From: a virus
DNA length: 20,097 nucleotides
IMG/VR virus record: IMGVR_UViG_3300044533_000556
Span: 1 to 20,097 of that record
Strand: one strand, 5' to 3'
Below are positions 1 to 17,867 of the stretch, piece after piece; within the stretch, counting starts at the first letter, position 1; every line of letters begins with the position of its first letter. A program made the translations under genes and the position numbers. The notes under the pieces are model-generated. The model had not been told where the DNA came from. It saw only the letters and a list, made by a program, of their open reading frames with translations, and ran no database searches.

Positions 1-59
1 GGTTAGATGACCTAGAGCAAAAAATCCCATTTCGTTTTTCGAGCCAATTTGACACATGA
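1..59 (+). CDS. 3' end of an upstream coding gene (partial)
   Basis: Reading in frame from base 3, the sequence stays open and ends at a TGA at 57-59. It gives a C-terminal tail LDDLEQKIPFRFSSQFDT. The TGA overlaps the ATG at 56-58 of the next gene in an ATGA arrangement, the junction used at many other gene boundaries in this window. The two other forward frames hit stops within the first 15 bases. The peptide is too short to name a function. The overlap is the main support for a real gene end; an open frame of 19 codons on its own is weak evidence. Confidence 0.5.
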   Translation, partial: LDDLEQKIPFRFSSQFDT

Positions 60-538
60 AACTAACAACGACCAAAATCACCGAGCTCTCGCTCGACCCG
101 TCCAACGTCCGCAAACATTCGCGCCGAAATCTCGACGCGATCAAAGCCAGCCTGCGCAAATTCGGCCAACAAAAGCCAATCGTCGTAGACGCGAAAGGGA
201 TCGTCCTCGCCGGCAACGGCACGTTGACCGCAGCGCAGGAACTCGGCTGGACCGAGATCCAGATCGTGCGGACGGAACTTGCGGGCGTTGAGGCCACGGC
301 GTTTGCGATCGCGGACAATCGGACGGCGGAGCTGGCAGAGTGGGATGATAATCTAGGGGACGTGCTGAAGTCCCTGCAAGACGAGGACGTTGATTTAACT
401 GATCTTGGCTACTCAGCAGAAGACATTGCGAAAATGCAGACGCCTGACTTTGCAGCCGGAACCGTGGATGACCAAGGAAAGCTCGATGAGAAATCACCGA
501 TTGAATGTCCGCATTGCCATAAGTCTTTTACGCCGTGA
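56..538 (+). CDS. ParB/Srx-like domain protein with C-terminal CxxC knuckle
   Basis: 160 aa. The N-terminal ~100 residues match the ParB N-terminal (ParB/Srx) fold. They include the opening DPSNVRKHSRRNLDAIKASL, the phosphate-binding loop GNGTLTAAQELGW (about 53-65), and the trailing AIADNRTAELAEWDD (about 84-98) seen in phage ParB-like proteins. Classical ParB uses this fold to bind CTP and slide on DNA; the phage single-domain forms are less understood and often sit beside DNA-modification enzymes. The last residues, ECPHCHKSF (about 150-158), form one CxxC pair, a half zinc knuckle that could be completed by dimerisation. There is no helix-turn-helix parS-binding domain, so chromosome partition is unlikely. 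The gene overlaps the following Mom-family gene by 4 nt, suggesting coupled translation and a joint role in modifying or guarding phage DNA. No Shine-Dalgarno sequence precedes the ATG. Confidence 0.88.
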   Translation: MKLTTTKITELSLDPSNVRKHSRRNLDAIKASLRKFGQQKPIVVDAKGIVLAGNGTLTAAQELGWTEIQIVRTELAGVEATAFAIADNRTAELAEWDDNLGDVLKSLQDEDVDLTDLGYSAEDIAKMQTPDFAAGTVDDQGKLDEKSPIECPHCHKSFTP

Positions 539-1197
539 AAACAGAGCTGAAAATTGATTGGGCGACGCATGAATCGGCAAAGTATGCAGTTGAAAATTGG
601 CATTACAGTGAATGCCTCCCAGCCGGTAAACTCGTGAAGGTTGGCGCATGGGAATCAGGAAAGTTTATCGGCTGCGTAATTTTCGGAAGAGGCGCTAATA
701 ACAATATGGCAAAACCCTACGGGCTGACGCAGCTTGAATGTTGTGAGCTCGTCAGAATCGCGCTTACAAAACACCTCTCACCAGTCTCACGGATTGCGGC
801 GCTTGCGATGCGATTTCTTAAATCACAATCGTCAGGATTGAAACTCATTGTTAGCTATGCCGACCCAGAACAAGGACACCACGGCGGAATCTATCAGGCA
901 GGGAATTGGATTTATTGCGGAAGGTCACAGGCGCAACAGGAGGTCATTTACAAGGGCGAGGTGATGCACAAGCGGACGGCAAATGCGCTTTTTGGAACAA
1001 TTAAAGGAATGCAGAAGTCTGCTATTTTTTGGAAGCATAAGTATCTAATGCCGCTTGACGCCGAGATGCGCGCCAAGATTCTCCCTCTCGCAAAGCCTTA
1101 TCCAAAACGCGCCGGAGGTGACACCACGGACACGCCAGTCTTCCAGACTGGAGAGGGCGGCTCGACACCGACCCCGGCGCTCCAATCTTCTGAATGA
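535..1197 (+). CDS. mom: Mom-family adenine modification protein (GNAT-like)
   Basis: 220 aa starting at GTG, which overlaps the previous TGA. It carries the Mom family signature in order: WHYS (22-25), GKLVKVGAWE (31-40), FGRGA (50-54), ELVRIAL (71-77), PVSRI (83-87), and SYADPEQGHHGGIYQAGNW (107-125). Phage Mu Mom has a GNAT-related fold and converts adenine to N6-carbamoylmethyl adenine in DNA, protecting the phage from restriction enzymes; the same role is inferred here. The family core seems to end near residue 185. Residues ~186-220 are a Gly/Thr/Pro-rich tail whose DNA (1109-1184) folds like a tRNA. The body of the gene is visibly less GC-rich than the flanking terminase genes, hinting at separate acquisition. 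In Mu, mom translation needs the zinc-finger protein Com; here the upstream coupled gene also ends in a CxxC knuckle. No SD is seen, so expression probably depends on coupling. Confidence 0.85.
   Translation: MKTELKIDWATHESAKYAVENWHYSECLPAGKLVKVGAWESGKFIGCVIFGRGANNNMAKPYGLTQLECCELVRIALTKHLSPVSRIAALAMRFLKSQSSGLKLIVSYADPEQGHHGGIYQAGNWIYCGRSQAQQEVIYKGEVMHKRTANALFGTIKGMQKSAIFWKHKYLMPLDAEMRAKILPLAKPYPKRAGGDTTDTPVFQTGEGGSTPTPALQSSE
1109..1184 (+). tRNA. tRNA-Gly(UCC)-like sequence inside the mom 3' end
   Basis: A 76-nt stretch folds as a cloverleaf. The acceptor arm GCGCCGG (1109-1115) pairs perfectly with CCGGCGC (1174-1180), followed by T and an encoded CCA (1182-1184). The anticodon stem CCAGT/ACTGG (1135-1139/1147-1151) is perfect around a 7-nt loop CTTCCAG, giving anticodon TCC (1142-1144) after T33, as expected for Gly. 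The D stem has GTG/CAC with GG in its loop. The T arm is GGCGG-CTCGACA-CCGAC with one mismatch. Departures from canon: A instead of T at position 8, C instead of T at 54, a poor fourth D-stem pair, and one extra C before the 3' acceptor strand. The same bases encode mom residues ~192-217. It may be a degenerate tRNA, a captured tRNA remnant, or an RNA structure with another role. tRNAscan-SE or ARAGORN would be decisive. Confidence 0.45.
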
Positions 1198-1823
1198 GCG
1201 ACGCCGCGCAATCACCGAGCGAAATCCTCGCCCGCCGCAACGTCCAAAACATCGCGGTCAAGCTCAAGGCCGGCAAGACGCTGACGACCTCGGAGCGGAA
1301 GGCGCTCAACGAGTTTCAGGCCGAGCAGACGGGCGGCTGGGTGAAAGACCTGAGCGCACTGGCGAAGGAGCTGGGGATGTCTCGGCAGGGCATTTACGAT
1401 GTCCGCAATCGCTTTGCGGACGCGCCGAAAAAGCACGAGGACGGCAAGCGCGAGAACCTGACGGCGTGGCAAGCGTTTTGCGCCGAACACCTGATTGGCA
1501 AGGACACGGCGACCAAGAATCTCGCCGACCTCAAAGCCGAACTCATGCGCGAGCAAATCCGTCTCGCCCGGTCCAAGAACGAGCGCGAGGCCGGCGACGT
1601 GATTGATCGGGAGGTGGTCGAGGCGATGCTCGTGACGCTCGGCCAAAAGCTCGACCTGCTGCTGCGGCTCAAGCTGACGATCGAACTCGGACCTCGTGGC
1701 GTCGGGATGAACGCGGCAGAGCTGAACGTCGAGGGCGGCGCGATCTTGTCGGAGATCCGCGAAGTCGTGAACGCGAATATCGCGACGTTCGAGGCCGAGG
1801 CGCTGGACCGGTCGAGGGAGTGA
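1194..1823 (+). CDS. Terminase small subunit (Nu1-like), putative
   Basis: 209 aa, ATG overlapping the mom stop (ATGA). Residues ~52-76 contain a helix-turn-helix, LSALAKELGMSRQGIYDVRN, as expected for a DNA-recognition subunit that binds the packaging site. The middle (about 100-145) is a charged helix, ADLKAELMREQIRLARSKNE, resembling the coiled-coil segment of Nu1-type small terminases. The rest is mostly helical. Position just upstream of the gpA-family large terminase, with small genes in between, supports the call. The family role is to recognise phage DNA and load the large subunit. It is slightly longer than lambda Nu1 (181 aa). The closest alternative is another phage HTH protein without a packaging role; I judge the terminase call likely but not certain. 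Confidence 0.7.
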   Translation: MSDAAQSPSEILARRNVQNIAVKLKAGKTLTTSERKALNEFQAEQTGGWVKDLSALAKELGMSRQGIYDVRNRFADAPKKHEDGKRENLTAWQAFCAEHLIGKDTATKNLADLKAELMREQIRLARSKNEREAGDVIDREVVEAMLVTLGQKLDLLLRLKLTIELGPRGVGMNAAELNVEGGAILSEIREVVNANIATFEAEALDRSRE

Positions 1824-1879
1824 AGCGATTGTTTGAAATAGTGCTTGCAATCAATCAAACGGTGGGCATCGTCTAGCGC

Positions 1880-2044
1880 ATGAACTCAACACAAACGGAA
1901 CAAATCAAAGCGCGCGCCAAATTTCTTAAACTAGAAAAGGCTGCGCACGATGCTGATTATGCTCGGCGCTGCGCGGCGGCTCGCGAAATTGCGCTCGCGA
2001 AGATTGCGGCGCTTCAAGCAATCGAAGCCGCGCGCGCTAAATAA
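1880..2044 (+). CDS. Small hypothetical helical protein
   Basis: 54 aa, from ATG at 1880 to TAA at 2042-2044. The product is Ala/Lys/Arg-rich and predicted to be almost wholly helical (for example FLKLEKAAHDADYARRCAAA, then ALAKIAALQAIEAARAK). It follows the small terminase gene by 56 nt and ends 10 nt before a rho-independent terminator. I do not recognise a family. Codon use looks like its neighbours, and no longer overlapping frame is better. There is no Shine-Dalgarno sequence. It could be a small DNA- or protein-binding accessory protein, but nothing in the sequence shows a function. Confidence 0.55.
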   Translation: MNSTQTEQIKARAKFLKLEKAAHDADYARRCAAAREIALAKIAALQAIEAARAK

Positions 2045-2054
2045 AACCCAACCC

Positions 2055-2082
2055 GCCCCGAAGAAACTAAGGGGCTCTTTTT
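2055..2082 (+). terminator. Rho-independent terminator
   Basis: GCCCC (2055-2059) pairs with GGGGC (2071-2075) across an 11-nt loop, and is followed directly by TCTTTTT (2076-2082). It lies in the 42-nt gap between the 54-aa gene and the 106-aa gene, outside any coding sequence. The stem is short, so termination may be partial. Partial termination would let upstream transcripts feed into the large terminase while reducing them. Confidence 0.65.
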
Positions 2083-2086
2083 ACCC

Positions 2087-2407
2087 ATGAAACTTACCAA
2101 AAACGACGCGGAAGAAGTCGCGCACAAGCTCGGGGTTTTGGCAGATTCGCCAGACTTGCAAGATGATTACGGTCTTACTCAAAGCCAAGCCGATCAACTG
2201 CGAGCCAGCGTCCCGCTGTCTGGCGGTCCGTGGATAATTCCGTTGTGGGGAATGGACGCGGTGCGCGGAGAGATGGCAGACCATTGCGTTGTGCTTTCCG
2301 GCATTGCTTCCGACGCTCGCTCGAATCGTGAGTTTGGGCAAGCGTTGCGAATTTCCAAGCAAGCAAAGCGGCTTAACGCTATTTTTTCAACCGAGGGCGA
2401 AGCATGA
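2087..2407 (+). CDS. Hypothetical protein
   Basis: 106 aa. It starts 4 nt after the terminator U-tract and overlaps the next gene by 4 nt. The N-terminus (MKLTKNDAEEVAHKLGVLAD) looks helical. A central stretch, SGGPWIIPLWGMDAVRGEMA, is hydrophobic with tryptophans but short for a membrane segment. The C-terminal ~40 residues are basic and helical. I do not recognise a family. The placement between the terminase subunits matches small accessory proteins of phage packaging regions. If transcription restarts after the terminator, this gene would be translated from an almost leaderless message unless read-through supplies it. Confidence 0.65.
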   Translation: MKLTKNDAEEVAHKLGVLADSPDLQDDYGLTQSQADQLRASVPLSGGPWIIPLWGMDAVRGEMADHCVVLSGIASDARSNREFGQALRISKQAKRLNAIFSTEGEA

Positions 2408-2583
2408 CCGCCGGCGGCAAACGCACCGGCGCAGGCCGCAAGCCGCTCGCGCCTGACCAACGCTCCGTCGGCGTGACGGTGCGCCTCCGTCCGCAAGTCG
2501 CGGCGCGGTTTCGCGATTTATGTAAACGGGCGGGCGTGAGCCAGTCGTGGGCGTTCACAGCGTGGATTAACCAATCGAGGTAG
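2404..2583 (+). CDS. Small basic protein, possible ribbon-helix-helix
   Basis: 59 aa, from ATG at 2404 overlapping the previous TGA to TAG at 2581-2583. The N-terminus is a basic arm, GGKRTGAGRKPL. It is followed by SVGVTVRLRPQVAARFRDLC and KRAGVSQSWAFTAWI. A short strand followed by two helices with a Ser-rich turn between them is the pattern of Arc/CopG/MetJ ribbon-helix-helix proteins, which bind operators as dimers. A role in late-gene regulation or packaging-site binding is inference. Small proteins starting with a GGxRxGAGRK arm are common next to phage terminases. It ends 2 nt before the TTG start of the large terminase gene. Confidence 0.7.
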   Translation: MTAGGKRTGAGRKPLAPDQRSVGVTVRLRPQVAARFRDLCKRAGVSQSWAFTAWINQSR

Positions 2584-2585
2584 CT

Positions 2586-4376
2586 TTGACCGCCTCCGAC
2601 GCACTCCTCACCACGCTGCGCCTTCCGCAGCCCGACCGCTCGCCAATCTACGAATGGGCGCGGAAGCATATCGTCCTGCCGGAGAGCTACGCGACGCCGG
2701 GACCGTTCAACGTGAAAATCTCGCCGTGGCTAATTCCGATCTTTGACGCGTTGCAGAATCCACTCGTGAGGCGCGTGCACTTCCGCAAGGCCGTGCAGAT
2801 CGGCGGCACGCTCGTCGCTGACATCTGGGTGCCGTGGCTGATCTGCAACGACGCTGGGCCGATCAGCTGGACGATGCAGACGGACGAAATGATTGACCGT
2901 CACGCGAAGTCACGGCTGAACCCGATCTTCGAGTCGTGCAAGCCGGTCGCCGCGATGCTTCCGCGAGTCGGGCCGCACCGGACGACGACCGAAATCTACT
3001 TCGGCGGCTTCTTTTTTCTGCTCAACCCGGCCAACCTTTCCAGCCAACAGTCGCAGTCCATCCGCTATAAAATAAATGACGAGATTTGGCTGCCGAAGTG
3101 GCAGGAGGTTTACGGTCACGCCGTCGCCCGCGTCAGTCGCTTTGAGGAGGTCGGGCGCTCCAAGATTTACAACACGAGCCAAGCGCCGATTATGGACCTT
3201 GAGACCGGCAACGTGGAAGACACGAGCTTCCGCCAAGGCACCCAGCAGGAATGGAGCACCGAGTGTCCGGCGTGCCACAAGGTTCACCCGCTTGCCTTCG
3301 CGCTGGACAAGAACGAGGAGACCGGGCTGCGGGGCGGCGTGGTCTGGGATGCAGCGGCGCGGCGCGATGACGAGACGTGGGACGTTGCGCGAGCCGTCGA
3401 GTCCTGCCGATTCCGTTGTCCGCATTGCGGCCACGAGTCACCGGACACCGACACGACGCGGACCGGCTGGAAGCGGGCCGGGCGGTTCGTTTCGCTGAAC
3501 GAGGCTGCGCCGGCGGAGATCCAGAGCTTCCGCGTCGAGTCGCTTGTCAGCCGGCCGATGCGGCTTCTGGTCGAAGAATTCTGCGAGGCGGACAACCATT
3601 TCGTGCGCCAAGGTGACGACAAAATGAAGATCGAGTTTCGCACGAAGCGCGAGGCGCGGCCGTGGATTGTCGAGAAGAAGGTCGTCAACCTCTTCGTGCA
3701 GGCGAGCGACTACACCGTCGCTCAGTTCTCCAACGGCGAGGCAATCGACGGCGAGGTGATTCGCTTCATGGCCGTGGACCGTCAGCAAGACCACTGGTGG
3801 GTCGAAATCGGCGCTTTCAGCTCGGCGACCGGTCCGACCTACCGGCAGCTCTATTTCGGGCGCGTCGAGACGCGGGACCAACTCCGGCAGTTGCAGCACC
3901 GTTACAAGGTGCAGGACGCGTGCGTTGCCCAAGATCGCGGCTACCGACCCGCCGACGTTGACCGGGATTGCGCGGACTTCGGCTGGCGAGGGATGCGCGG
4001 ATACGCTCGCAAGACTTGGACGATGCGAGACGAGGCAAGCGACAAGCTGATCAACTTCCCGTTCAGCGAACCACGAGTGAGCGACTACCGGGGCGGAGAC
4101 GTGTTTTATTACGACTGGTCTGGCGACTATTTCAAAGACCTGCTTGCGAACGCGCTGGAAGCCAAGGGCGACCTGAAATGGCTTTTGCCGAAGGACGTGA
4201 ATCCGCTCTACCTCGAACACCTCAAGGGCGAGTCAAAGGTTGAGATTCGCACCGGCGTTTGGGAGTGGCGCGAGGTGAAAAGCAACGCGCCGAATCACGG
4301 TCTCGACACCTCGGCGATGCTGCTCTGCATGGCGACGATTGCGAACGTGATTCGCTACGCAGCTCCGAAGGAATAA
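2586..4376 (+). CDS. Terminase large subunit, gpA family
   Basis: 596 aa. The start is TTG at 2586: the frame is closed by TAA at 2568-2570, and no ATG or GTG lies between that stop and the conserved N-terminus. The ATPase part has a deviant P-loop, RKAVQIGGT (67-75), with the lysine at its start as in lambda gpA. The Walker B-like INDE is at 163-166. A zinc-ribbon insertion typical of the family uses CPAC (227-230) and CPHC (278-281). The nuclease domain has an RNase H-like strand, FMAVDRQQDHWWVEIGAF (394-411, D398), DRGYRPADVD (450-459), and a late acidic D574 in HGLDTSAM. The protein translocates DNA into the prohead and cuts concatemers. Its length is near lambda gpA (641 aa). It is followed 27 nt later by the gpW-like gene. 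Confidence 0.95.
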   Translation: MTASDALLTTLRLPQPDRSPIYEWARKHIVLPESYATPGPFNVKISPWLIPIFDALQNPLVRRVHFRKAVQIGGTLVADIWVPWLICNDAGPISWTMQTDEMIDRHAKSRLNPIFESCKPVAAMLPRVGPHRTTTEIYFGGFFFLLNPANLSSQQSQSIRYKINDEIWLPKWQEVYGHAVARVSRFEEVGRSKIYNTSQAPIMDLETGNVEDTSFRQGTQQEWSTECPACHKVHPLAFALDKNEETGLRGGVVWDAAARRDDETWDVARAVESCRFRCPHCGHESPDTDTTRTGWKRAGRFVSLNEAAPAEIQSFRVESLVSRPMRLLVEEFCEADNHFVRQGDDKMKIEFRTKREARPWIVEKKVVNLFVQASDYTVAQFSNGEAIDGEVIRFMAVDRQQDHWWVEIGAFSSATGPTYRQLYFGRVETRDQLRQLQHRYKVQDACVAQDRGYRPADVDRDCADFGWRGMRGYARKTWTMRDEASDKLINFPFSEPRVSDYRGGDVFYYDWSGDYFKDLLANALEAKGDLKWLLPKDVNPLYLEHLKGESKVEIRTGVWEWREVKSNAPNHGLDTSAMLLCMATIANVIRYAAPKE

Positions 4377-4403
4377 GGCCGGTTTGACGTTTCGAGCCTT
4401 GGT

Positions 4404-4640
4404 ATGCTCGACAACCCATTTCTCGGACTGGACACCGCGACGCTTACCGCGCTCAAGACCAAGACGATTGACGCGATTCAAGCCGTGCTCCTGAACCAAA
4501 GCTACTCGCTCAACGGCAAGAGCGTGAGCCGGGCAGACCTGACCGCGCTCAACAACATGCTCGGCAACTTGCAAGACGCCTTGACCGACGCAGCCGGAAC
4601 GTCAACCGATACGACCTTCGTGAGCTTCAACGGAAACTGA
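4404..4640 (+). CDS. gpW-like head completion protein, putative
   Basis: 78 aa, small and mostly helical: LTALKTKTIDAIQAVLLNQS, then a short turn SLNGKSVSRAD, then LTALNNMLGNLQDAL. The helix, beta-like turn ('NGKSV' before 'adL..L'), helix pattern and the size fit gpW of lambda (68 aa). Lambda gpW sits at the same place between the gpA terminase and the gpB portal and plugs the portal after DNA packaging. A weak inverted repeat, AAGGC/GCCTT, lies in the 27-nt gap upstream. No SD. The call rests on size, secondary-structure pattern and synteny. Confidence 0.6.
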   Translation: MLDNPFLGLDTATLTALKTKTIDAIQAVLLNQSYSLNGKSVSRADLTALNNMLGNLQDALTDAAGTSTDTTFVSFNGN

Positions 4641-4641
4641 C

Positions 4642-6810
4642 ATGAGCACCGACTTTTTCGACGCGTCAAAACTGGTCGCAAATAAACCGTGGATTGACCG
4701 GGCGTTGGAGAACATCGCGCCGACGTGGGCGCTCAAGCGTTTGGAGGCACGCGTCGCGAAGTCGCTTTTCGAGTATAACGCGGCGCGGACTAATCGCCTT
4801 TACACGCCCAAGCAATACACCCAGCCGGCCGAGAGTTCGCAGAATCAGCGGGACCGGGTGGTCATGATGTATGAGGCTCGCGACCTCGTGGACAACTTCC
4901 CCGAGGCGCGGGAAATTTCGCGCAAGTTCGGACTCTACCTGACGCCGCACGAGTATTCTCCGACGACCGGGGACCGCGATTACAACCGCGTGATTGACGA
5001 CTATTTCCACGCGTGGTGCAAAAACTGCGACGTGACGAACCGGCACAGCTTCAAAAAGCTCGTGCAGCTCGCAGCCGAGGAACGACCGATTGACGGCGAT
5101 TGCGGCTTTGTGATTCGGCGCAGCGGCGAGGGTTTGAAACTGCAACTGGTGCCGGCGACGCGCATCGGCAATCCGAACGAGTCAGCCGTCGCCTCGAACA
5201 ATTACTTTCAAGGCGTCGTGACGAACGACTTCGGTCAGCCAGTGGCTTACCGGATTTTCCGCGTGGACCGGAACGGCGTTTATTTCGGCGCGGAGGACAT
5301 TCCGGCGAATCAGTTTTGCCACTACTTTGACCCGTTCCGCGTTGACCAATACCGGGGCGTGACGGACCTGCACAGCGCAATCCAGACGGCGCGGATGCTG
5401 CACGAAATCTTGCAGGCGGAAAAGGCGGGCGTTCGCTTCTCGTCGCAGCAGGCGGCGCTGATCTTCAACGACCGAGGCGTCGCGAACCCGCGCAACCTTT
5501 TCCAGCCAAACCCTGCGGCGAACTTGCCGAGCGGCCAGACGCAAAAGAACGAGCTGACCGAGGTCGGCATGATTCGATATTTCCAGAACAGCGACCGCGT
5601 GGAAGTCATGCCGTCGCGTCCGTCGCAGGCTTTCACCGGATTTGTGCAGCACCTCATGCACGAGATCGCGCTAGGCGTTGGCGTGCCGGAAGGCGTGCTG
5701 TTCGGCACGCAGGAATACAAAGGGCCGAGCGTCCGCGCAGAGTTCGCTGCGGCTGATCGAGTGTTCACGAACAAGCAGGGCGTGCTGACCGACAAGGTTC
5801 TCGACCCGATCAAGGACGCCGTGATTCTCGACGCCATCGCACGCGGCGAGATTCCGCCGCCTCCGCTTCTCGCGGGCGAAACAATGGTTCAAGCACTGCG
5901 CCGAGCGACCAAGGGCGAGTGGCGCTTCCCGGCGAAGCTCAGCATCGATGTCGGCCGCGAGAGCGCCGCGAACATGAACGAGAACCGGCAGGGCGCGAAG
6001 TCGCTGCAAGAGATCGCGGCCGAGGAAGGCACCGACGCTTTCTCGCGGCTCGAACAGATCGCAATCGAGGCCGGTTTCGTGAAGGAACTCGCGGTCAAAT
6101 ACGGCGTGCCAGAGACGGCTATTCGCCTCACGACGACCTCACTCCCGAGCACGCCAGCGGCCGCAGCCGCAGCAGGCGATGCGGTGGGCGCAAGCGCAGC
6201 CGAGGCGCAGGCGGCGAGCGTCGCGGCGGCACCCGCTGCAATCGAGCCGGTTCAACAAGTGCAGAACGACGCAAATCTCGTCACGATCAACTTCGCGACC
6301 GACTCCTACATTCCGACAAACGCGATGGCGGAAAACGCTCGCCGCGCTCTCGACGTCCGCGAGCAAAAGCCAATTTCACAGCGCGGCATGACGAGTATCG
6401 GCATCGCTCGCGCTCGCGACCTCATGAACAAACGGCCAATGTCCGAGGACACCGTTCGCCGGATGAAGGCATTTTTCGACCGCCACCAAGCCGACAAGCA
6501 GGGCGAGACGTGGAAGGACCAAGGCAAGGGCTGGCAGGCGTGGCACGGCTGGGGAGGCGACGAGGGCTATTCGTGGGCGACGGCCATCGTTGAGCGTTTG
6601 AACAAGCAAGAAGTGCCGAAGGAACTTAACGCTGAACCGTTCGTGATTCGTGAGGCTCTGCTCAAAAACAAGGACGCCGCCGAGGTGTTTAAGACATTCT
6701 GCAAGACCGCTTCGCCGACGCTCGAAGAAATCGACAAGCAGCAACGCGTGGTTAAAATCTACCGCAAAGTTTCGGAGATTTTTGAGACGTTGAAAAATCG
6801 CACCAACTAA
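4642..6810 (+). CDS. Portal protein (gpB/lambda family) with extra C-terminal domain
   Basis: 722 aa. Residues 1 to ~490 are a lambda-type portal. They include YEARDLVDNFPEAREISRKF (77-96), the wing region ERPIDGDCGFVIRR (147-160), LQLVPATRI (167-175), HYFDPFRVDQYRGVTDLHSA (227-246), the long helix AEKAGVRFSSQQAAL (259-273), and GVPEGVLFGTQEYKGPSVRA (347-366). The portal forms the dodecameric ring for DNA entry and docks terminase and neck. An Ala-rich linker (about 505-535) leads to a second globular segment (about 560-655): AENARRALDVREQK, ARARDLMNKRPMSEDTVRRM, and WQAWHGWGGDEGYSWA. A helical tail runs to 722. Lambda gpB has 533 aa, so about 190 residues are added. I recall a similar Trp/Gly-rich domain in other phage structural proteins but cannot name it. 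The gene starts 1 nt after the upstream stop. Confidence 0.93.
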   Translation: MSTDFFDASKLVANKPWIDRALENIAPTWALKRLEARVAKSLFEYNAARTNRLYTPKQYTQPAESSQNQRDRVVMMYEARDLVDNFPEAREISRKFGLYLTPHEYSPTTGDRDYNRVIDDYFHAWCKNCDVTNRHSFKKLVQLAAEERPIDGDCGFVIRRSGEGLKLQLVPATRIGNPNESAVASNNYFQGVVTNDFGQPVAYRIFRVDRNGVYFGAEDIPANQFCHYFDPFRVDQYRGVTDLHSAIQTARMLHEILQAEKAGVRFSSQQAALIFNDRGVANPRNLFQPNPAANLPSGQTQKNELTEVGMIRYFQNSDRVEVMPSRPSQAFTGFVQHLMHEIALGVGVPEGVLFGTQEYKGPSVRAEFAAADRVFTNKQGVLTDKVLDPIKDAVILDAIARGEIPPPPLLAGETMVQALRRATKGEWRFPAKLSIDVGRESAANMNENRQGAKSLQEIAAEEGTDAFSRLEQIAIEAGFVKELAVKYGVPETAIRLTTTSLPSTPAAAAAAGDAVGASAAEAQAASVAAAPAAIEPVQQVQNDANLVTINFATDSYIPTNAMAENARRALDVREQKPISQRGMTSIGIARARDLMNKRPMSEDTVRRMKAFFDRHQADKQGETWKDQGKGWQAWHGWGGDEGYSWATAIVERLNKQEVPKELNAEPFVIREALLKNKDAAEVFKTFCKTASPTLEEIDKQQRVVKIYRKVSEIFETLKNRTN

Positions 6811-6811
6811 G

Positions 6812-7210
6812 ATGAGCACAAAGACCGACCACGAAGAACAGTTGGGCGCGATTATACTCCATCACGCCGAGGAATTGCAGCGCATGGCGGCGGAGATTCC
6901 CCAGCTTCGCACGGCGCTGGCCGTCGCCGAGCACGAACGCAAATCGCTGGCCGATTCTCCGAGCATGGTTTCAGCCGTTGCGAACCTCGCGCAAATCATC
7001 ACCGCGTTGCAGGGAATTTTGGCGAAACCGCCGCAAGCCCCCGAGATCAACGTGACCATTCCCGAAATCAAACTGCCAGACGCGCCAACTGCGCCGGCAA
7101 TCGTTTTCCCGGAATGGCCGAAGCCAGAAAGCAAATCGCGCATCGTTTTTCGCATCACGAAACGCGACGGACTTGGCCGGATGGCCGAAGCCGTTGCCGA
7201 GCTGGAATAA
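6812..7210 (+). CDS. Hypothetical coiled-coil/proline-rich protein
   Basis: 132 aa, ATG 1 nt after the portal stop. Residues ~8-50 are a likely coiled coil (ILHHAEELQRMAAEI, TALAVAEHERKSLAD). A second helix (about 52-70) is followed by a Pro-rich stretch, INVTIPEIKLPDAPTAPAIV, and a basic segment, RIVFRITKRDGLGRM. I do not recognise a family. The gene opens the block of appendage-like genes inserted between portal and protease. Its coil-then-extended layout would suit an adaptor or fibre-base protein, but that is inference from context. Confidence 0.65.
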   Translation: MSTKTDHEEQLGAIILHHAEELQRMAAEIPQLRTALAVAEHERKSLADSPSMVSAVANLAQIITALQGILAKPPQAPEINVTIPEIKLPDAPTAPAIVFPEWPKPESKSRIVFRITKRDGLGRMAEAVAELE

Positions 7211-7227
7211 TTTAACACACAAAAAAA

Positions 7228-8988
7228 ATGGCCGACAACGTAGGATATACACCGGGCGAAGGCGCAAGCGTCGCAGCCGACAACATCGGCGGGCATCTCT
7301 TTCAGCGCGTGAAACTCGCGCTCGGCGCGGACGGAGTGAACGACGGCGACGTCAGCGCAGCAAATCCGGTTCCGGTTACGGGCGCGGTCACGGTGGGAAA
7401 TTTCCCGGCGCAGACCGGGCTGACCGACGCGCAACTTCGGGCGAGCGCGGTTCCCGTTTCTGGAACGGTCACCGCCAACACTGGATTGTCGCAACCGCTA
7501 ACCGACGCTCAGCTTCGCGCCGCAGCGGTGCCGGTAAGCGCGGCAAGTCTCCCACTCCCGACCGGCGCAGCTACGGCGGCGTTGCAGCCGGACGTGATGA
7601 CAACGCATCCGACCTTCGGCAGTCGCGGCTCCGTCGTGCGTCAGGCTCCGGCTGATATTTGGTCGGTCGGTTTTGCTGACAGCGGATCTGGCTTGCTTGC
7701 ATCCGAATTCACGCAGCGGCGTCTCGGCACAGGCATGGGCGTGACGCAGGCGAGCAGCAACTTGCTGGTGACAACCGGCACCACCGCGAACAGTGAATTT
7801 CTGGCGCGAAGCACGACCGCGTTCAAGGGCGCGTTCACGGCTCGCCACAAAACGATTCTTTCGCAGCGCATCGCGCAAAATAACTTTGCCGTGATGATGG
7901 CGGACATGATCGGCGAGGGCTTGGCCTGCACGATCAACAGCGCGACCTCAATCACCGTCACAAAAGCGGCGCACGGATTTACGACGGTCAACGTCGGACA
8001 GTTTATGATGGTGGGCGCGATTACCGGCGCGAACGGCGTGCCGAATCGCTACGCCATCGCGTCCATCCCATCGGTGGACACGATCAACTTTACGGTCGCG
8101 GGCTGGCCAGCGTCTGGAAGCTGCACGGTGGATTTATTCGGCTGGAACTACCTCTGGACGCAATATTCCGGCACGACTGCGACCAACGCCAGCATTGACG
8201 CGCAGCGGCGCGGGTGGAACTCGGGCCTGACGACGGCAACGATTAACACGACCGCCGCGCCGGGGCACGTGATGCAAACTTACGCGGACGGGCGAAATGT
8301 CGCTTGGTCGGACGCGCTAGTCGCCAGCGCAACGACGCCAACCGTAACGACTCGCGGCAGTCGCGTTGAATCTCTGCCGGACGACGACGTGAACCTTTAC
8401 GTCTATTTGTGGAGCTACAACGGCACGAGCGCACCCGCGAGCACGACGACGTGGACGCTCGGCTTTATCGCCGTTGAGGACAACGTGAACGTGCCGACGT
8501 ATATCGCTGGCGTTCGTCCAAATGGCAATGCGGCTCCGTTGCCGGTGGCGGTGCAAGGCACAGTCGCAACGTCATTCACCCAACCGGCGCTGGTCGCAGG
8601 CTCGGCTCTAATCGGAGACGTGGGCATCCAATACCGTGGCAGCGCGACGGGCGCGGCCACGCTCACCAACGTCAACAGCCCGGCCACCCCAGTCGCGCAG
8701 CAGCTCAAATCCGGCGCAGGCAGATTGCTCGGCATCCTCGTGACTAACACCTCTGCCTCAACGCGGTGGCTCAAAATTTTTAATCTAGCTTCCGCCTCGG
8801 TCACCCCCGGCACGACGGCGGCAACGACGGAAATCGGCATTGGCGCGGGCCGCACAATTAACTGGTCGCTTGAGGGCGGTGCGGGCTTTGCGACAGGCAT
8901 CACGATTATGGTCACGGGCGGGCAGGGTCTGACCAACAACACTGGAATCACCCTCGGCGACGTAACCGGCTTTACTTCTCACGCTTAA
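7228..8988 (+). CDS. Putative virion appendage/fibre-like protein
   Basis: 586 aa. No cysteine-dense, catalytic or membrane motif is seen in the N-terminal half; the protein is rich in Thr, Ala, Gly, Val and Ser with beta-strand-like alternation, as in phage fibres and decoration proteins. The N-terminal ~120 residues hold an imperfect repeat, LTDAQLRASAVPVSG (65-79) and LTDAQLRAAAVPVS (91-104), the pattern found in many phage structural proteins. Middle region: long beta-rich segments with aromatic turns (FGWNYLWTQYSG). The last ~100 residues resemble a beta-sandwich (VTNTSASTRWLKIFNLAS). Host contact or capsid decoration is inferred from composition and its neighbour, a clear fibre-like gene. 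The leader is A-rich (CACACAAAAAAAATGG) with no SD. Confidence 0.75.
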   Translation: MADNVGYTPGEGASVAADNIGGHLFQRVKLALGADGVNDGDVSAANPVPVTGAVTVGNFPAQTGLTDAQLRASAVPVSGTVTANTGLSQPLTDAQLRAAAVPVSAASLPLPTGAATAALQPDVMTTHPTFGSRGSVVRQAPADIWSVGFADSGSGLLASEFTQRRLGTGMGVTQASSNLLVTTGTTANSEFLARSTTAFKGAFTARHKTILSQRIAQNNFAVMMADMIGEGLACTINSATSITVTKAAHGFTTVNVGQFMMVGAITGANGVPNRYAIASIPSVDTINFTVAGWPASGSCTVDLFGWNYLWTQYSGTTATNASIDAQRRGWNSGLTTATINTTAAPGHVMQTYADGRNVAWSDALVASATTPTVTTRGSRVESLPDDDVNLYVYLWSYNGTSAPASTTTWTLGFIAVEDNVNVPTYIAGVRPNGNAAPLPVAVQGTVATSFTQPALVAGSALIGDVGIQYRGSATGAATLTNVNSPATPVAQQLKSGAGRLLGILVTNTSASTRWLKIFNLASASVTPGTTAATTEIGIGAGRTINWSLEGGAGFATGITIMVTGGQGLTNNTGITLGDVTGFTSHA

Positions 8989-8992
8989 TCAA

Positions 8993-9160
8993 ATGACCGT
9001 TTCAAAACTCATTCAGCTTGCACAGCGCCGCATTGCTCGACTGGAGCAAGATCGCGTTAGTGCCGACCTCACCGGAGACACCGACGCGATGGAGCGGATT
9101 GATTCCGAAATCGCAGAAACGCAGACAACGCTTAATCAACTGCAAACGCTCTCGGAATAA
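8993..9160 (+). CDS. Small hypothetical helical protein
   Basis: 55 aa, from ATG at 8993 to TAA at 9158-9160. The product is one or two amphipathic helices (KLIQLAQRRIARLEQDRVSA, DSEIAETQTTLNQLQTLSE) with a heptad-like spacing of Leu and Ile, so probably a coiled coil. I do not recognise a family. It sits 4 nt after the 586-aa gene and 3 nt before the next small gene. It may be a small trimerisation or adaptor piece for the fibre proteins, but only position suggests this. Confidence 0.6.
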   Translation: MTVSKLIQLAQRRIARLEQDRVSADLTGDTDAMERIDSEIAETQTTLNQLQTLSE

Positions 9161-9163
9161 ACG

Positions 9164-9352
9164 ATGCTGCTGACGCTGCTCAGTTTCCAAGGCACGCCGC
9201 CACCGCCGCCGCCGCCGACACCGGACGAGTCGGACGTAATTATCGGCACCACGAGAGAGCGGCGCGTCCGAAAAATTGACGAAGAGGACTTAGAGACGCT
9301 CGAAATTTTTGCCACCACGCTTTTGATCTACCACCGCAACGGCCAACTCTGA
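9164..9352 (+). CDS. Small polyproline protein
   Basis: 62 aa. The N-terminus is hydrophobic ([10 protein letters not shown]), followed by seven consecutive prolines (12-18), an acidic turn TPDESD, a basic cluster [14 protein letters not shown], and a hydrophobic C-terminus [19 protein letters not shown]. Small proteins with a short hydrophobic start, proline run and Arg-rich patch are frequent next to phage fibre genes, in my recollection; their role is unknown. The short hydrophobic N-terminus is not a convincing signal peptide. It lies between a coiled-coil mini-gene and the 848-aa fibre gene with gaps of only 3-4 nt, so it is likely cotranscribed. Confidence 0.6.
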
Positions 9353-9356
9353 CACC

Positions 9357-11903
9357 ATGCAAGACCCACAACAGCAAATCAACAGCCTCATCGAGATGGC
9401 CGTCACGCAAAAGGCGGAACTCAAGCAGATCCTCGAATTTTTCCCAATCTTGCGCGACCACTTGTCCGGCGAGATCGAGCGCAGCCTTGAAGAGATCGAA
9501 CCGGCGATTCGCTCGGAGCTGGAAATCTTTATCGCGGCGCGAGCGACCGACGCACAGACCAAGATCAGCTCGGAGCTTTCCGCCAAAATCGACGCCATCA
9601 CTCGCAGCCTAGAATCAACGACGGCGGCGCGTTATTCCGTGCTCATGGCCGAGCGCGAGAACAACGCTTCGCTTCTGACGCAGGCCGAGGCGCGAATCGC
9701 AGAGGCGGCGTCCGCTTTGCCGAGCGCGGTCAAGGAAATCGTCACCGACGAACTCTCACGCTTTCCGCGTGCCGGCGAAATCGATCAACTGCGGAAGGAA
9801 TTTGCCGAGCCGAAGGGCCTGAACCCTCGCGGCAAGTGGACGCCGAACGACACCTATCAAAAGTTGGACCTCGTGACGTTCAACGGCGATTCGTTCGTGT
9901 CGAACATCAACGACAACCGCGAAAGACCGGGCCGGAACGCGGAGAACTGGACGCTGAACGCCGCACGCGGCAACAGTGGCGGCGGCGGCGGCATTACTAC
10001 GCTGACCGATCTTCTGCCGATCCCAACGAGCGGGCAAATCCTCGGCAGCGAAGGGCCGAGCTACGTGCCGAAGAACTTAGTGGCCGGCAGTAACATCACG
10101 ATTACCGAGACGCCGACGACGATCACGATTACCGGCGACGAGGGACAAATCGAGTTGCAGGACGGAACCGAGGCAGCGCCGTCCCTCTTCTTCGTCAGCG
10201 ATACCAACACCGGTATGTATCGCCCGGCAGCTGACACGGTGGGAATCGTTGGCGGCGGCAACGACGTGGTGCGGCTGACTGGCGTGGCGAGCGCGACGGA
10301 TTACATTGAGGTCAAGAACGGAATCGGCGTTGCCACTCCGCTCCACATTCTCGCCGAGGGCGCGAGCACGAATATCGGCGTGCATTTGCAGCCAAAGGGC
10401 AGCGGACTTTTCACGATCAGCGACGGCACCGATTTTAACAAAGGCATACGCTTTCGCAGCTCGTCCAGCGCCGCAAGCGCAGTGACTTTGATTGACGCCG
10501 TTTCGACAGCCGGCCGCGTCGTCACTCTTCCCGACGCAACCGACACGCTCGTGGGACGTGCGACCACGGACACGCTGACGAACAAGACCCTGACGAGTCC
10601 GACGATGACCGCGCCGGTGCTTGGCACACCGTCCAGCGGCACGCTGACGAGCTGCACGGGCCTACCGCTCACGACGGGCGTGACCGGCACGCTACCAGTC
10701 GCCAACGGCGGCACAGGCGTGACCACCTCGACGGGCAGCGGCGCAAACGTGCTCTCTACGTCACCGACGCTCACGACGCCAATCTCGGCGTCTCTCACCT
10801 CGCCATCCGCCACCGACCTCACCCTCGCGGGCGGCAGCTCGGGGGCGAGTTTGGTGTTGTTTCAAGGCGCGAACGGCGCGGTAGGTATCGCATCAAACGG
10901 CACTGGTTCTGTTAATATCACCCCCGGTGCATCTGGCTCGGTCAATATCAACAGCGCAAGCGGCGTTGGCAAACTTGCGGTCCGCACTGGCACCGATGAA
11001 AACGCGCATTTCCGCACCGCCACGGCCATCGGCGGAACCGGCGTGGGGCTGGATATGCTCAACAACGCCAACGGCGCAACGGTAGGCTTCACCCTTCGCG
11101 CCAGCGCCACGCGGCTCACTGGTGGCGTCGTCTCCGTCACCGACACCACCGCCAGCACGTCCACGACGACCGGAGCACTTGTCGTTGGCTCCAACGTGGG
11201 CTTATCGGGGAACTCGGGCGGCGCGAATTGGTTTGGCGGCGAGCGGCTCATTTCGCAGATGAACCAAAACGCGCCTACTCGACTTCAGGTGCGGAACGAT
11301 ACGAGCGGGACGGCTGCACAAGCTCAAGTTTCCGCAACGCTTGGCGACTTTACGACATATACGGCAATGGGTTCACTTTCTGCCGGATTTACCACGTCGG
11401 GGCTATTTGCCGCAAACGCGGGCTACATTGCCAGCAATGCGACGGCAGGGCTAAACGTCTTCACGGTGGGCGCAACGTCGCTGACTCTTGGCACCAACGG
11501 CACAGCGGCACTCACCCTCGCCTCCAACGGCGCGGCGACGTTCTCAAACTCTGTCCGCTCCACCTCCGCCACCGCAGGCATCGGCTACGCGACCGGCGCG
11601 GGCGGCGCAGTCACGCAGATCACGAGCCGCACCACGGGCGTCACGCTCAACACCGTTTCGGGCGCGATCACGCTTTTCACCGCCGCAGGCAGCGCGACGT
11701 GGCAATCCTTCACCGTCACCAATTCCGCCGTGGCCGCGACGGACACGATCATCGTCAACCAGCGCAGCGGGACCGACCTTTACATGATGTCCGTTACCGC
11801 CGTGGGCGCGGGTTCCTTCCGCATCAGCTTTGCCACTACGGGCGGCACGACCTCGGAAGCCCCCGTGCTCAACTTCTCCGTTATCAAAGCTGTCTCCGCC
11901 TAA
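9357..11903 (+). CDS. Tail fibre-like protein with carbohydrate-binding-type module
   Basis: 848 aa. Residues 1-150 are highly helical with Glu/Ala heptads, a probable coiled-coil stalk. Residues ~159-202 match the CBM5/12-like pattern, [20 protein letters not shown] ending in NWTL (W161, W198), a fold used to bind polysaccharide. A glycine run, GNSGGGGG (about 206), follows. Residues ~270-400 carry phage-fibre phrases such as [12 protein letters not shown] and [13 protein letters not shown]. Then come [13 protein letters not shown] and [12 protein letters not shown] (about 405-455), hallmark repeats of phage tail fibres. The C-terminal ~390 residues are Thr/Ser/Gly/Ala-rich beta repeats without a recognisable intramolecular chaperone or peptidase. 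It is likely the host-binding fibre or a head-attached fibre. Its placement inside the head gene cluster is unusual. Confidence 0.82.
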
Positions 11904-11915
11904 TTTTTTCCTACC

Positions 11916-12167
11916 ATGAATGACCCAATCGTCACCACCACGCTACAACGCATCCAGACTGACCCGCAGGGCGAGTCTCCTATCGCCACTGCTTTTTTCG
12001 AGAAGAAAACCGTTATCGACGGGCAGGTGTTCGTGTCGCCTTGGACAACGGTTCAATGGCCGCTCCTAAGCGACAAAACCGTCACCGTCGGCGGCAAGAC
12101 TTACAGCTACGCCGAAGTCTCGGCTGCGGTTACGGCCATCGCGCATCAGGAACTCGCCGCTTCCTAA
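11916..12167 (+). CDS. Hypothetical protein
   Basis: 83 aa. Beta-rich first half (TAFFEKKTVIDGQVFVSPWT, TVQWPLLSDKTVTVGGKTYS), then a helix (YAEVSAAVTAIAHQELAAS). I do not recognise a family. It follows the fibre gene by 12 nt and precedes a 48-aa gene by 1 nt, so it is probably cotranscribed with the fibre block. The composition fits a small virion or adaptor protein. No SD (leader TTTTTTCCTACC). Confidence 0.6.
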   Translation: MNDPIVTTTLQRIQTDPQGESPIATAFFEKKTVIDGQVFVSPWTTVQWPLLSDKTVTVGGKTYSYAEVSAAVTAIAHQELAAS

Positions 12168-12168
12168 C

Positions 12169-12315
12169 ATGAGCACTGAGCAAGCACTCCAAAACCTATA
12201 CGCAGCCGCTCGCCTTGCACCATTACCCGCCGATCAGCACGATTTGCTACGCAAGTGCGCGGAGCAGCTTGCCGAGGCTTTAAATCCAAAGGAAATGGTC
12301 GATAAACCCAAATGA
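12169..12315 (+). CDS. Small hypothetical helical protein
   Basis: 48 aa, from ATG at 12169 (1 nt after the previous stop) to TGA at 12313-12315, which overlaps the next ATG. It is almost entirely helical: EQALQNLYAAARLAPLPADQ, then HDLLRKCAEQLAEALNPKE. The spacing is typical of phage small-gene strings. No family is recognised. The 4-nt overlap with the next gene is the best support that this is translated. Confidence 0.6.
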   Translation: MSTEQALQNLYAAARLAPLPADQHDLLRKCAEQLAEALNPKEMVDKPK

Positions 12316-12842
12316 GCGGGACGGCAGACGTTAATTGGCGCAGCTACGTTGGGCCGAATGACAACGGGCTGACGGTGAACGCGGCTGAATGGCAGGCACC
12401 GCTTGACCCCGAGAACTGGGACGACTTGGTGAAGTGTTCGAACTGCACCGGGCTTGTCATCAGCGGGCTGACGATTCCAGCCAGCCGCGAGGACTCGATT
12501 GATTGCGTGCGCGGCTCTAATTACACGGTGCAGAACTGCACGGTTCACGGCTCGGTTACGATCAAGGGCGCGATCAACGGTCTGACGCTTTACGGCTCCG
12601 TCGTGAGCGGCACGATTGAGCTGGGGCAGTATGACAACTATTGGGAGCCGGGCCGCGCTCCGACGCAGAACGTTTCAATACTCGACTGCACCTCGCCGGA
12701 CGGCTCGCCGATTCGCGTCAAAGTCTGGGACGCCGAAGTGCCGTTCGTCCGAAATGCGAACGTGAAAATAACCAAAGTGCCGAAATGGATTTGGTTCCCG
12801 TATTTTCTTTTCCGCCGTTTGACGAACGACTTGAGGGTGTAA
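12312..12842 (+). CDS. Putative beta-helix-like hypothetical protein
   Basis: 176 aa. Residues ~40-125 alternate short hydrophobic strands with Asn/Thr/Gly turns (KCSNCTGLVISGLTI, SNYTVQNCTVHGSVTIKGA, LTLYGSVVSGTIELG). This is the ladder pattern of right-handed beta-helices found in phage tailspikes and pectate-lyase-like proteins. The C-terminus has a hydrophobic patch, WIWFPYFLFRRL, close to a basic tail. No catalytic signature is seen. It could be a small spike or a cap on the fibre, but I cannot assign a function. It starts in a 4-nt overlap with the 48-aa gene and stops 2 nt before the holin-like gene. Confidence 0.65.
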   Translation: MSGTADVNWRSYVGPNDNGLTVNAAEWQAPLDPENWDDLVKCSNCTGLVISGLTIPASREDSIDCVRGSNYTVQNCTVHGSVTIKGAINGLTLYGSVVSGTIELGQYDNYWEPGRAPTQNVSILDCTSPDGSPIRVKVWDAEVPFVRNANVKITKVPKWIWFPYFLFRRLTNDLRV

Positions 12843-12844
12843 CC

Positions 12845-13252
12845 ATGTTTCCTCTCGCTGAAATTCTAGGCATCGGAACGAAGCTGATCGACAAGCTCAT
12901 TCCTGACCCCGAAGCAAAGGCCAAGGCGCAGCTAGAACTGGCGACGATGGCGCAGAACGGCGAGCTGGCGAAGATGAACGCCGATCTTGAGGCATACAAG
13001 ACTGAGCAGAGCAACCTGACCGAGCGGCTCAAAGCGGACATGTCATCGGACTCGTGGATGTCCAAGAACGTGCGACCGCTAACGCTCGCGGCGATCCTCG
13101 TCGGATATTTCACTTTCGCGATGATGTCAGCCTTCGGGCACAACGCCAACGAGTCGTATGTCGCACTGCTCGGGCAGTGGGGCATGCTCATCATGAGCTT
13201 TTACTTTGGCGGCAGGACGCTCGAAAAAATCATGGAGATGCGGAAAAAATGA
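12845..13252 (+). CDS. 3TM-type holin-like membrane protein
   Basis: 135 aa, taken from ATG at 12845 because the frame upstream runs inside the preceding gene. The N-terminus (1-20) is an amphipathic helix, followed by a charged helix (DPEAKAKAQLELATMAQNGE). The signature SDSWMSKNVRPLT (68-80) leads into two membrane segments, about 80-97 and 105-122 (VALLGQWGMLIMSFYFGG), and a basic tail EMRKK. This layout matches the phage 3TM holin family. Holins make lesions in the inner membrane that release or activate the endolysin. The stop overlaps the start of a one-TM protein, a frequent pairing. No endolysin lies in the window. Placement between fibre genes and head protease is atypical for a lysis gene. 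Confidence 0.78.
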   Translation: MFPLAEILGIGTKLIDKLIPDPEAKAKAQLELATMAQNGELAKMNADLEAYKTEQSNLTERLKADMSSDSWMSKNVRPLTLAAILVGYFTFAMMSAFGHNANESYVALLGQWGMLIMSFYFGGRTLEKIMEMRKK

Positions 13253-13410
13253 ACCCCACGCACGTCAAAGACCTCGCCACCGCTTCGACTCCCGTCGTCG
13301 CCTTTACCTCACTTTCGCAGGTCAACGACGTGGCGGCGCTCATCGGGACGTTGCTGGGCATCGCGTTTTTGCTTTGGCGCTGGAAGCGCGAGGCAAGCAA
13401 GGAGCCGTGA
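13249..13410 (+). CDS. Small single-TM protein, possible second holin/antiholin
   Basis: 53 aa, from ATG at 13249 overlapping the holin-like TGA to TGA at 13408-13410. One clear membrane segment, VAALIGTLLGIAFLLW (28-43), is followed by a positive tail RWKREASKEP, which predicts an N-out/C-in orientation. Small one-TM proteins next to holins often act as second holins or antiholins; that role is inference. The residues before the membrane segment (LATASTPVVAFTSL) are weakly hydrophobic. The 4-nt overlap suggests coupled expression with the 3TM protein. Confidence 0.7.
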   Translation: MNPTHVKDLATASTPVVAFTSLSQVNDVAALIGTLLGIAFLLWRWKREASKEP

Positions 13411-13418
13411 TTTGACGG

Positions 13419-13436
13419 CCATCGCTTAGGCGATGG
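13419..13436 (+). promoter_or_regulatory. Hairpin covering the protease start codon
   Basis: CCATCGC (13419-13425) and GCGATGG (13430-13436) are perfect inverted repeats with a TTAG loop. The ATG start codon (13433-13435) lies inside the 3' arm, so folding would hide the start. With no SD present, ribosome entry may depend on opening this stem, for instance by ribosomes ending at the upstream TGA (13408-13410), which lies 8 nt before the stem. Function is inferred from position. Confidence 0.45.
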
Positions 13437-14374
13437 AACCCGTCATTACATTTGCAGCGTCCGCAGGCGTCATTGACGCACAAGCCGGCATCATTCGCGG
13501 CGTCTCGCTGATCACCAAAGGGCCGGCGCTCGGGCACGGCGTGATGATTGACGACCTGACTTTGGAGCAGGTCAAAACCGCCGCCGAGCAATACGCGGGC
13601 GGGCTCAAGGTCAAACTCGACCACTCGGGCGGCGCTGGCGATATTGTGGGCTATATCGACGCGCTGAGAATCAGCGGCGAAAAGCTGCTCGGGGATTTGC
13701 ACTTGCTGCAAAATTCGCCGCATCGCGCTTATATCTTGGAGATCGCCGAACGGATTCCAGACACGTTCGGGCTCTCAATCGCGTTCTCGGGTCCGTCCGA
13801 AAAGAGCGCGGACAAGCTCACGACTTTGCAACGGTGCTCGGAAATTTACTCGGTCGATCTCGTCAGCGAACCCGCTGCGAACCCGAACGGATTTTTTGCG
13901 CGCAAACTCAAACAATTTGAGAGCGACGCCAGCGAGTCGCCGGAAGCAGAAATCAAAATCGAAATTCCTATGAACGACGAAATGAAAAAGGCCATCGAAG
14001 GCATGATTCAGTCTGCCATGATGGGCATGACGGAAAAAGTCGCGAAGCTCGAAAGTGCTCTCGCTCCCAAAGAAGAAAAACCCGCCGCGATGAGCGCACA
14101 GAACGAAGTCGTGCAGCTCGCCGCCAACGCCGCCGCACTCGCAGCGGTCAAAGAATTTGCCAAGTCCTTTGGTGCGCCAGCCGCTCCGATTGCCTCGGCC
14201 GAAGCAGTCAAACCGGTCGCAAAGGTCGAGAAGTTTGAGGATGTCGTCGCCGCAAAAGCCGTTGAGCTAAAGGGCGACAAATCTTCGGCGATCACCTTCG
14301 CGATCAAAAATCATGCCGAACTCTACGCTGCCTATCGCGCACGCGTTCAAGCCGGCGAACTCGTCAAACTCTAA
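13433..14374 (+). CDS. Head maturation protease with C-terminal scaffold
   Basis: 313 aa. The N-terminal ~160 residues look like an assemblin-type (HK97/herpesvirus-like) prohead protease: KVKLDHSGG with H64, TFGLSIAFSG with S115, and YSVDLVSEPAANPNGFF (139-155), the usual end of the domain. H64 and S115 are the candidate catalytic pair. The C-terminal ~130 residues (about 175-313) are helical and Ala/Lys/Glu-rich, as expected for a fused scaffold (MNDEMKKAIEGMIQ, NEVVQLAANAAALAAVKEFA). The protein would guide capsid assembly, then cleave the scaffold from the prohead. An internal ATG at 13970 (M180) could start a separate scaffold product as Nu3 does inside lambda C, but no SD supports it. 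It is not the S49 type used by lambda. It precedes the decoration and capsid genes. Confidence 0.85.
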   Translation: MEPVITFAASAGVIDAQAGIIRGVSLITKGPALGHGVMIDDLTLEQVKTAAEQYAGGLKVKLDHSGGAGDIVGYIDALRISGEKLLGDLHLLQNSPHRAYILEIAERIPDTFGLSIAFSGPSEKSADKLTTLQRCSEIYSVDLVSEPAANPNGFFARKLKQFESDASESPEAEIKIEIPMNDEMKKAIEGMIQSAMMGMTEKVAKLESALAPKEEKPAAMSAQNEVVQLAANAAALAAVKEFAKSFGAPAAPIASAEAVKPVAKVEKFEDVVAAKAVELKGDKSSAITFAIKNHAELYAAYRARVQAGELVKL

Positions 14375-14386
14375 TCCAAAACTAAA

Positions 14387-14737: not shown

Positions 14738-14756
14738 CCATTAAGAACTAATTACC

Positions 14757-17851: not shown

Positions 17852-17867
17852 CGATTCGCGCAATTGT

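Follow-up and report, generated by a model that had tools for sequence, protein, structure and literature searches.

A tRNA-Gly-like RNA in and beside phage mom genes, with a proposed role as glycyl donor for Mom

A 76-bp tRNA-Gly-like "pseudo-tRNA" has been described in a mom homologue of the Dehalococcoides ssrA genomic islands (McMurdie et al. 2011; PMC3146451). A ParB-domain gene is adjacent at that locus and a "DCC" anticodon lies in a 5-nt loop; the element, found in one genus and one fosmid, served as a primer target and was given no Mom-linked function (PMC3146451). FemXAB enzymes add glycine from tRNA-Gly, and the non-proteinogenic tRNA-Gly isoacceptors of S. aureus could supply them (PMC4052509). 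For Mom, the product of the Mu enzyme is given as alpha-N-(deoxyribosylpurin-6-yl)glycinamide, an adenine N6-glycinamide (Swinton 1983), and the donor has only been surmised in the literature, as an acyl-CoA "such as glycyl coA" (PMC7824862). A literature search that left preprints and most subscription journals outside its scope found no link between Mom and glycyl-tRNA.

The window, that is the whole stretch of DNA analysed (20,097 bases), carries mom between a ParB-like gene and a presumed small terminase gene (terS). These three genes and that of the large terminase subunit lie in one common orientation (Table 1), and mom is preceded by a ParB-like gene in several named phages too. The conserved Mom core ends at about position 1107, and translation of the element yields the remaining tail. 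The mom stop and the start of the next gene overlap as ATGA (1194-1197), which suggests translational coupling of the two. Processing of the element by RNase P would cleave the transcript immediately 5' of terS.

Table 1. Coordinates of the features of the mom locus and of the tRNA-Gly-like element in the window.
Feature	Position	Strand	Remark
Whole window, complete virus record	1..20,097		20,097 bases
ParB-like gene, 5' of mom	56..538	+	weak match, under Pfam cut-off
mom gene, Mom family, GNAT fold	535..1197	+	Pfam PF25680, E 6.3e-43, residues 5-191
Whole tRNA-Gly(UCC)-like element, CCA encoded	1109..1184	+	fold, homologue alignment, covariance model
Acceptor stem 5' strand GCGCCGG	1109..1115	+	G1 C2 G3 in GlyRS identity pairs
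D arm, 3-bp stem GTG/CAC, 10-nt loop	1118..1133	+	double changes in homologues
Anticodon arm CCAGT-C-TTCCA-G-ACTGG	1135..1151	+	all five stem pairs covary
32:38 pair, C1140-G1146	1140, 1146	+	
Anticodon TCC	1142..1144	+	loop CTTCCAG
T arm GGCGG-CTCGACA-CCGACC	1156..1173	+	bulged A at 1171
Acceptor 3' strand CCGGCGC, discriminator U73 and CCA	1174..1184	+	U73 at 1181, CCA at 1182-1184
Gene 3' of mom, presumed terminase small subunit	1194..1823	+	precedes terminase large subunit
Terminase large subunit	2586..4376	+	

A sequence-only reading of the window had proposed a tRNA-Gly-like cloverleaf inside the mom frame. The perfect 7-bp acceptor stem, the perfect 5-bp anticodon stem with its CTTCCAG loop and TCC, the GG in the D loop, the T arm, the terminal TCCA and the location within the mom ORF were all found as claimed, and two of the weak points it had named, A8 and C54, are present as described. 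The D stem is one of 3 bp. The best fit to the T stem, from RNAalifold, has 5 bp (GGCGG/CCG-A-CC) and a single A that bulges out between pairs 50:64 and 51:63; it superseded a 6-bp stem with a G-A mismatch. ARAGORN called no tRNA and Rfam (RF00005) gave no match at the element of the window; recognition as a canonical tRNA is confined to some homologues, called tRNA-Gly by ARAGORN. Single-sequence folding gave a modest signal (z -1.9), with a minimum-energy fold that is not the cloverleaf. A covariance model from which the window and its near-identical relatives had been left out scored it at 85.9 bits (E 3.7e-19). The reading had suggested a search with tRNA models and a look for compensatory changes: the standard models were silent, but the compensatory changes proved massive and the custom covariance model found the element readily. 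The comparative evidence settles that the element is a real structured RNA.

The element is kept at the 3' ends of mom genes across hundreds of phage contigs, and a related sequence was present at a fixed site past the last conserved codons in nearly all of 80 mom-bearing viral contigs. Mutually compensating acceptor stems were seen without any structural filter (GCGCCGG/CCGGCGC, GCGCATC/GATGCGC, GCGTGTG/CACACGC and GCGTACA/TGTACGC). Type I elements have 76 nt and a D arm, and D-arm-less types have 69 and 70 nt. The alignment of 60 type I homologues was free of gaps, with 98.7% of pair cells paired, a percentage inflated by the scanner that chose the rows, which demands paired stems. Both sides had changed at 14 of the 20 pairs, with 224 double-change cells against 56 +/- 6 after shuffling. 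The covariation score was 0.52; shuffled alignments gave 0.13, and sliding the partners gave no more than 0.12. Five of the seven acceptor pairs of type I covary and the first two are invariant; the D stem alternates between GTG/CAC and GCA/TGC by double changes and the D arm is replaced in the D-arm-less types, which display the same strong compensatory covariation.

Features outside the criteria of the scanner provide a cleaner test, because it selects paired stems. Among 187 unique elements, which contain 67 different acceptor stems and 118 different anticodon stems, positions 32 and 38 are paired in 179 (CG 80, GC 47, AU 28, UA 19), a pairing that played no part in their selection, and all 170 that have a T-stem bulge carry A as the bulged base. 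Applied with no anticodon required to 249 deduplicated mom 3' regions, a set in which some loci were recruited through the element, the scanner found the structure in 217, of which 210 had an NCC anticodon and 209 the glycine acceptor features as well. Dinucleotide shuffling left 5 structures in 249 (1 NCC), the reverse complements gave 31 in 249 (1 NCC) and the regions upstream of the 249 loci 16 (2 NCC). When only loci recruited through mom were counted, the structure was present in 114 of 132, with NCC in 110 of the 114. A chance hairpin was ruled out by the covariation and by the shuffle and reverse-complement controls. Judged from these alignments, the whole RNA is under selection, because the compensatory covariation is strong in all three types.

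The sequence-only reading had guessed that the structure might be conserved if other phages have similar "GEGGSTPTPALQ" protein tails, and its conservation is borne out by the homologues and the covariation. The tail itself, to judge from the reading frames, is a by-product of the RNA, as the frame that encodes it differs from phage to phage. The element begins at differing codon positions according to type, so that one RNA gives different protein tails (for example KRAGSDT..EGGSTPTPALQ and KRAKQAM..RQGGTDPHAP). In some phages mom stops ahead of the element or within it: in Arthrobacter phage TaeYoung the element overlaps just the final bases of mom, and in Salinibacter phage B2_17 an annotated tRNA-Gly lies 33 nt 3' of the gene. 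A conserved protein tail was ruled out by the different frames and by the elements past the stop. In Psychrobacter phage Y8A, two tandem D-arm-less elements occupy the interval from mom to the small terminase gene (L254:1353-1493).

Could the element act in cis, as a fold of the mom-terS transcript that controls the translation, stability or processing of either gene, perhaps through GlyRS binding, like the tRNA mimicry of thrS mRNA? It would be well placed to do so, within the mom ORF in 173 of the 187 unique elements and just 5' of terS, with the mom stop running into the terS start, and Mom is toxic upon artificial expression and kept silent in lysogens of Mu. Other Mom clades depart from this arrangement, however. 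The tRNA-Gly of the Y8A clade (clade B) are on the mom strand in 7 of 15 cases and opposite in 8, Microbacterium phage Pickles13 has a near-canonical tRNA-Gly(CCC) after mom on the opposite strand, one locus (L235) has the element upstream of mom, and in some phages mom is followed by one or more unrelated genes and not by terminase. The opposite-strand copies are unable to act in cis on the mom mRNA, yet they retain the glycine identity set. We regard cis action as unlikely; this includes the structure governing mom or terminase translation that the sequence-only reading had offered, since the opposite-strand and upstream copies and the differing downstream genes do not suit it. Because the frames differ and copies occur past the stop, 5' of mom or on the other strand, selection is, on this distribution, on a trans-acting RNA and not on the protein.

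The glycine identity set of bacteria has been determined experimentally as U73, G1-C72, C2-G71, G3-C70, C35 and C36 (PMC9976931; PMC9908026). The element of the window has the entire set, which is nearly invariant in the 187 unique elements despite their varied stems: G1 in 186, C2 in 187, G71 and C72 in 186-187 and U73 in 186, with CCA in 170. G1, C2, G71, C72 and U73 were not among the demands of the scanner. C35 and C36 were a criterion in selecting these 187, and the unselected figure is the NCC in 110 of 114 given above. A covariance model of mom elements only was run against 200 bacterial genomes, and all 20 of the matches examined were tRNA-Gly(UCC); tRNA-Thr and tRNA-Tyr adjoin most of these, yet the model did not pick them. 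By profile as well as by look, the element is a tRNA-Gly derivative.

Features needed by a canonical elongator, namely U33 in a 7-nt loop, an open 32:38 and an unbulged T stem, are found together neither in the window nor in most of the family. U33 is kept in 72 of the 187 unique elements; the window keeps it but has the C32-G38 pair and the bulged A. U54 and U55 are lost or altered, and the D arm is missing in about half of the elements. T-stem pairs are determinants of EF-Tu binding (PMC4052509). The T-stem bulge falls inside the region read by EF-Tu, which suggests weak binding, and the bulged A is a candidate contact for Mom or GlyRS or a candidate EF-Tu antideterminant. At wobble position 34 the base is U or A and occasionally C; G occurs there in 1 of the 187 unique elements, although GCC is a common bacterial tRNA-Gly anticodon. 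By its features the RNA seems suited to glycylation but not to decoding. An identity set that is kept while decoding features erode is as expected for a tRNA that is charged yet unused by the ribosome, and these features make it highly probable that the element is a tRNA mimic, conserved and tied to mom, which can be glycylated but does not decode. Among the options of the sequence-only reading, a functional tRNA overlapping a coding gene came closest, although this RNA looks apt for glycylation and not for decoding.

Phages often carry tRNAs, and an ordinary tRNA-Gly that boosts the translation of glycine codons would account for those copies that are near-canonical, called by ARAGORN or annotated as tRNA-Gly. 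It would not account for the Watson-Crick closure of 32:38, the loss of U33 in most elements, the frequent A34, the bulged T stem or the D arm absent in about half, nor for a location almost exclusively beside mom and an isotype that is exclusively glycine: within about 400 nt of 212 mom genes ARAGORN called 28 tRNA-Gly, 3 tRNAs without isotype and none of any other isotype. We consider this very unlikely. A glycylated decoy, which drains or ties up GlyRS or EF-Tu or shields the phage from tRNA-targeting defences and is linked to Mom only through the operon, would agree with the intact GlyRS identity set and the lost decoding features, but it leaves the near-exclusive linkage to Mom over divergent clades unexplained, as well as the choice of glycine, and seems quite unlikely.

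The linkage was counted in 212 deduplicated mom genes, none of which was recruited via the element. Automatically, it was found in 113 of 137 mom genes of the clade of the window, 28 of 59 of the Y8A clade, 2 of 2 of the Pan3 group and 0 of 14 of the Mu clade. Visual inspection of the loci that the automatic count had missed recovered many more elements, several of which have a loop of 6 or 8 nt (examples are L475, L487, L502, L506, L514, L520, L538 and L543); in the clade of the window, several misses are first copies in tandem mom pairs. The tandem paralogues at L012, L061, L091 (identical to L024), L124 and L135 have the element only at the second copy. When viral contigs were searched with the 3' half of the element, Mom was upstream in 192 of the 194 matches that had at least 300 nt of upstream sequence. 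The Mom of Y8A is closer to Mu Mom than to that of the window, and its nearest Mom proteins carry the element too.

No element was found beside mom in Mu, Aeromonas pAEv1818, Pseudomonas JD024, Riggi, VSiP, P12002L, DSL-LC03, Liebe, PMBT69, EfaS_159, JeffCo or CRP-902. Some copies of the Mu end gave scanner matches (37.5, with an anticodon other than NCC), which represent an inverted repeat at the right end of Mu. In Enterococcus phage phiEf11 the 137-nt non-coding gap 3' of mom (L081:2106-2243) shows no clear tRNA-Gly fold; it contains nested inverted repeats and may hold a different RNA in place of the element. One minus-strand locus (L323) has a complete element 3' of a ParB gene and no recognisable mom within the 14 kb examined. 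Another (L296, minus strand) has an extra stretch of ORF between the Mom match and the element, about 400 nt ahead of the latter, possibly two mom-type genes or one broken mom.

Two loci without mom keep only the 3' half of the element, one at the end of a truncated ParB-like gene (L277:186-215) and one at the end of an unrelated ORF just 5' of a ParB gene (L362, minus strand). They look like scars left where mom was lost, with the breakpoint inside the RNA. Such half copies, and the common use of tRNA genes as integration sites, are what a relic or a recombination or integration site derived from tRNA-Gly would offer; the compensatory covariation in all three types and the retention of the element with mom in many contexts make this extremely improbable, and the covariation likewise rejects the tRNA remnant left by recombination that the sequence-only reading had listed.

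The Mom of the window matches PF25680 with 147 bits (cut-off 27) over residues 5-191, the whole domain. Its AlphaFold model (pLDDT 89) has Mu Mom (8bv8) as the best PDB match, with a TM score of 0.75-0.78, and the two are homologous, with about 21% identity in the structural alignment. The glycinamide product is known for Mu Mom alone, and the Mom of the window is likened to it by homology and fold. The loop TKHLSP, which precedes the helix at residues 84-98, is without the conserved glycines of the classical GNAT pyrophosphate motif. Foldseek against the PDB, consulted for a FemX-like fold, ranks ordinary GNATs next after Mu Mom. Because these neighbours are mostly CoA- or ACP-dependent GNATs, the modelled Mom fold does not appear to favour a tRNA donor.

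The best explanation of the whole, which we hold to be reasonably probable, is a dedicated tRNA-Gly-derived RNA that is charged by the host GlyRS and serves as glycyl donor for Mom. Host tRNA-processing enzymes would excise the element from the mom transcript, GlyRS would charge it with glycine, the charged RNA would be withheld from EF-Tu and the ribosome, and Mom would transfer the glycyl group from the RNA to adenine in phage DNA. We infer this transfer because Mom has a GNAT fold, the Mu product is built on glycine, the Gly-tRNA is dedicated and FemXAB offer a parallel. That the element RNA is the glycine donor for Mom is, on the sequence evidence, fairly likely. It is also somewhat more likely than not that Mom enzymes are glycyl-tRNA:DNA adenine transferases, many of whose genes encode their own donor tRNA inside or beside them. 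We propose that acyl transfer from Gly-tRNA to adenine N6 would give -CO-CH2-NH2 (glycyl), which is isomeric with the -CH2-CO-NH2 (carbamoylmethyl) known from Mu; a Smiles-type rearrangement, in which the free amine attacks purine C6, would convert the one to the other. This need for a rearrangement to reach the Mu product counts against the donor role. The Mu clade and several distant Mom phages, having no adjacent element, would need host Gly-tRNA or another donor, and host Gly-tRNA is what Mu would use.

The sequence-only reading had not linked the element to the glycine-derived product of Mom. The adenine modification was described in 1983, and a glycylatable tRNA tied to mom now indicates Gly-tRNA as the donor. 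If true, aminoacyl-tRNAs serve DNA modification besides proteins, cell walls and lipids, a gene can hold its own co-substrate tRNA inside its reading frame, and this would be the first tRNA known to provide a DNA building block. The elements also identify a family of tRNA-derived RNA whose members standard annotation mostly overlooks.

Compared with the known systems, the element has in common with bacterial elongator tRNA-Gly(UCC) the acceptor identity pairs, U73, C35 C36 and the cloverleaf; the elongator has U33, an open 7-nt loop and an unbulged T stem, which most mom elements have lost or altered. Mu Mom shares the enzyme homology and fold, but Mu is without an adjacent tRNA-Gly-like element. 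The non-proteinogenic tRNA-Gly of S. aureus resembles the element in its weakened EF-Tu and decoding features and in a putative role of feeding a dedicated transferase, as is proposed for the element, but there the acceptor is the peptidoglycan precursor, not DNA, and the tRNA genes lie outside the enzyme gene. The Dehalococcoides locus, compared by its description only, is like the window in its tRNA-Gly-like fold within mom and its NCC-type anticodon in a pentaloop. What differs from that report is the occurrence in phages of many hosts, the covariation, the identity set, the independence of strand and a proposed mechanism.
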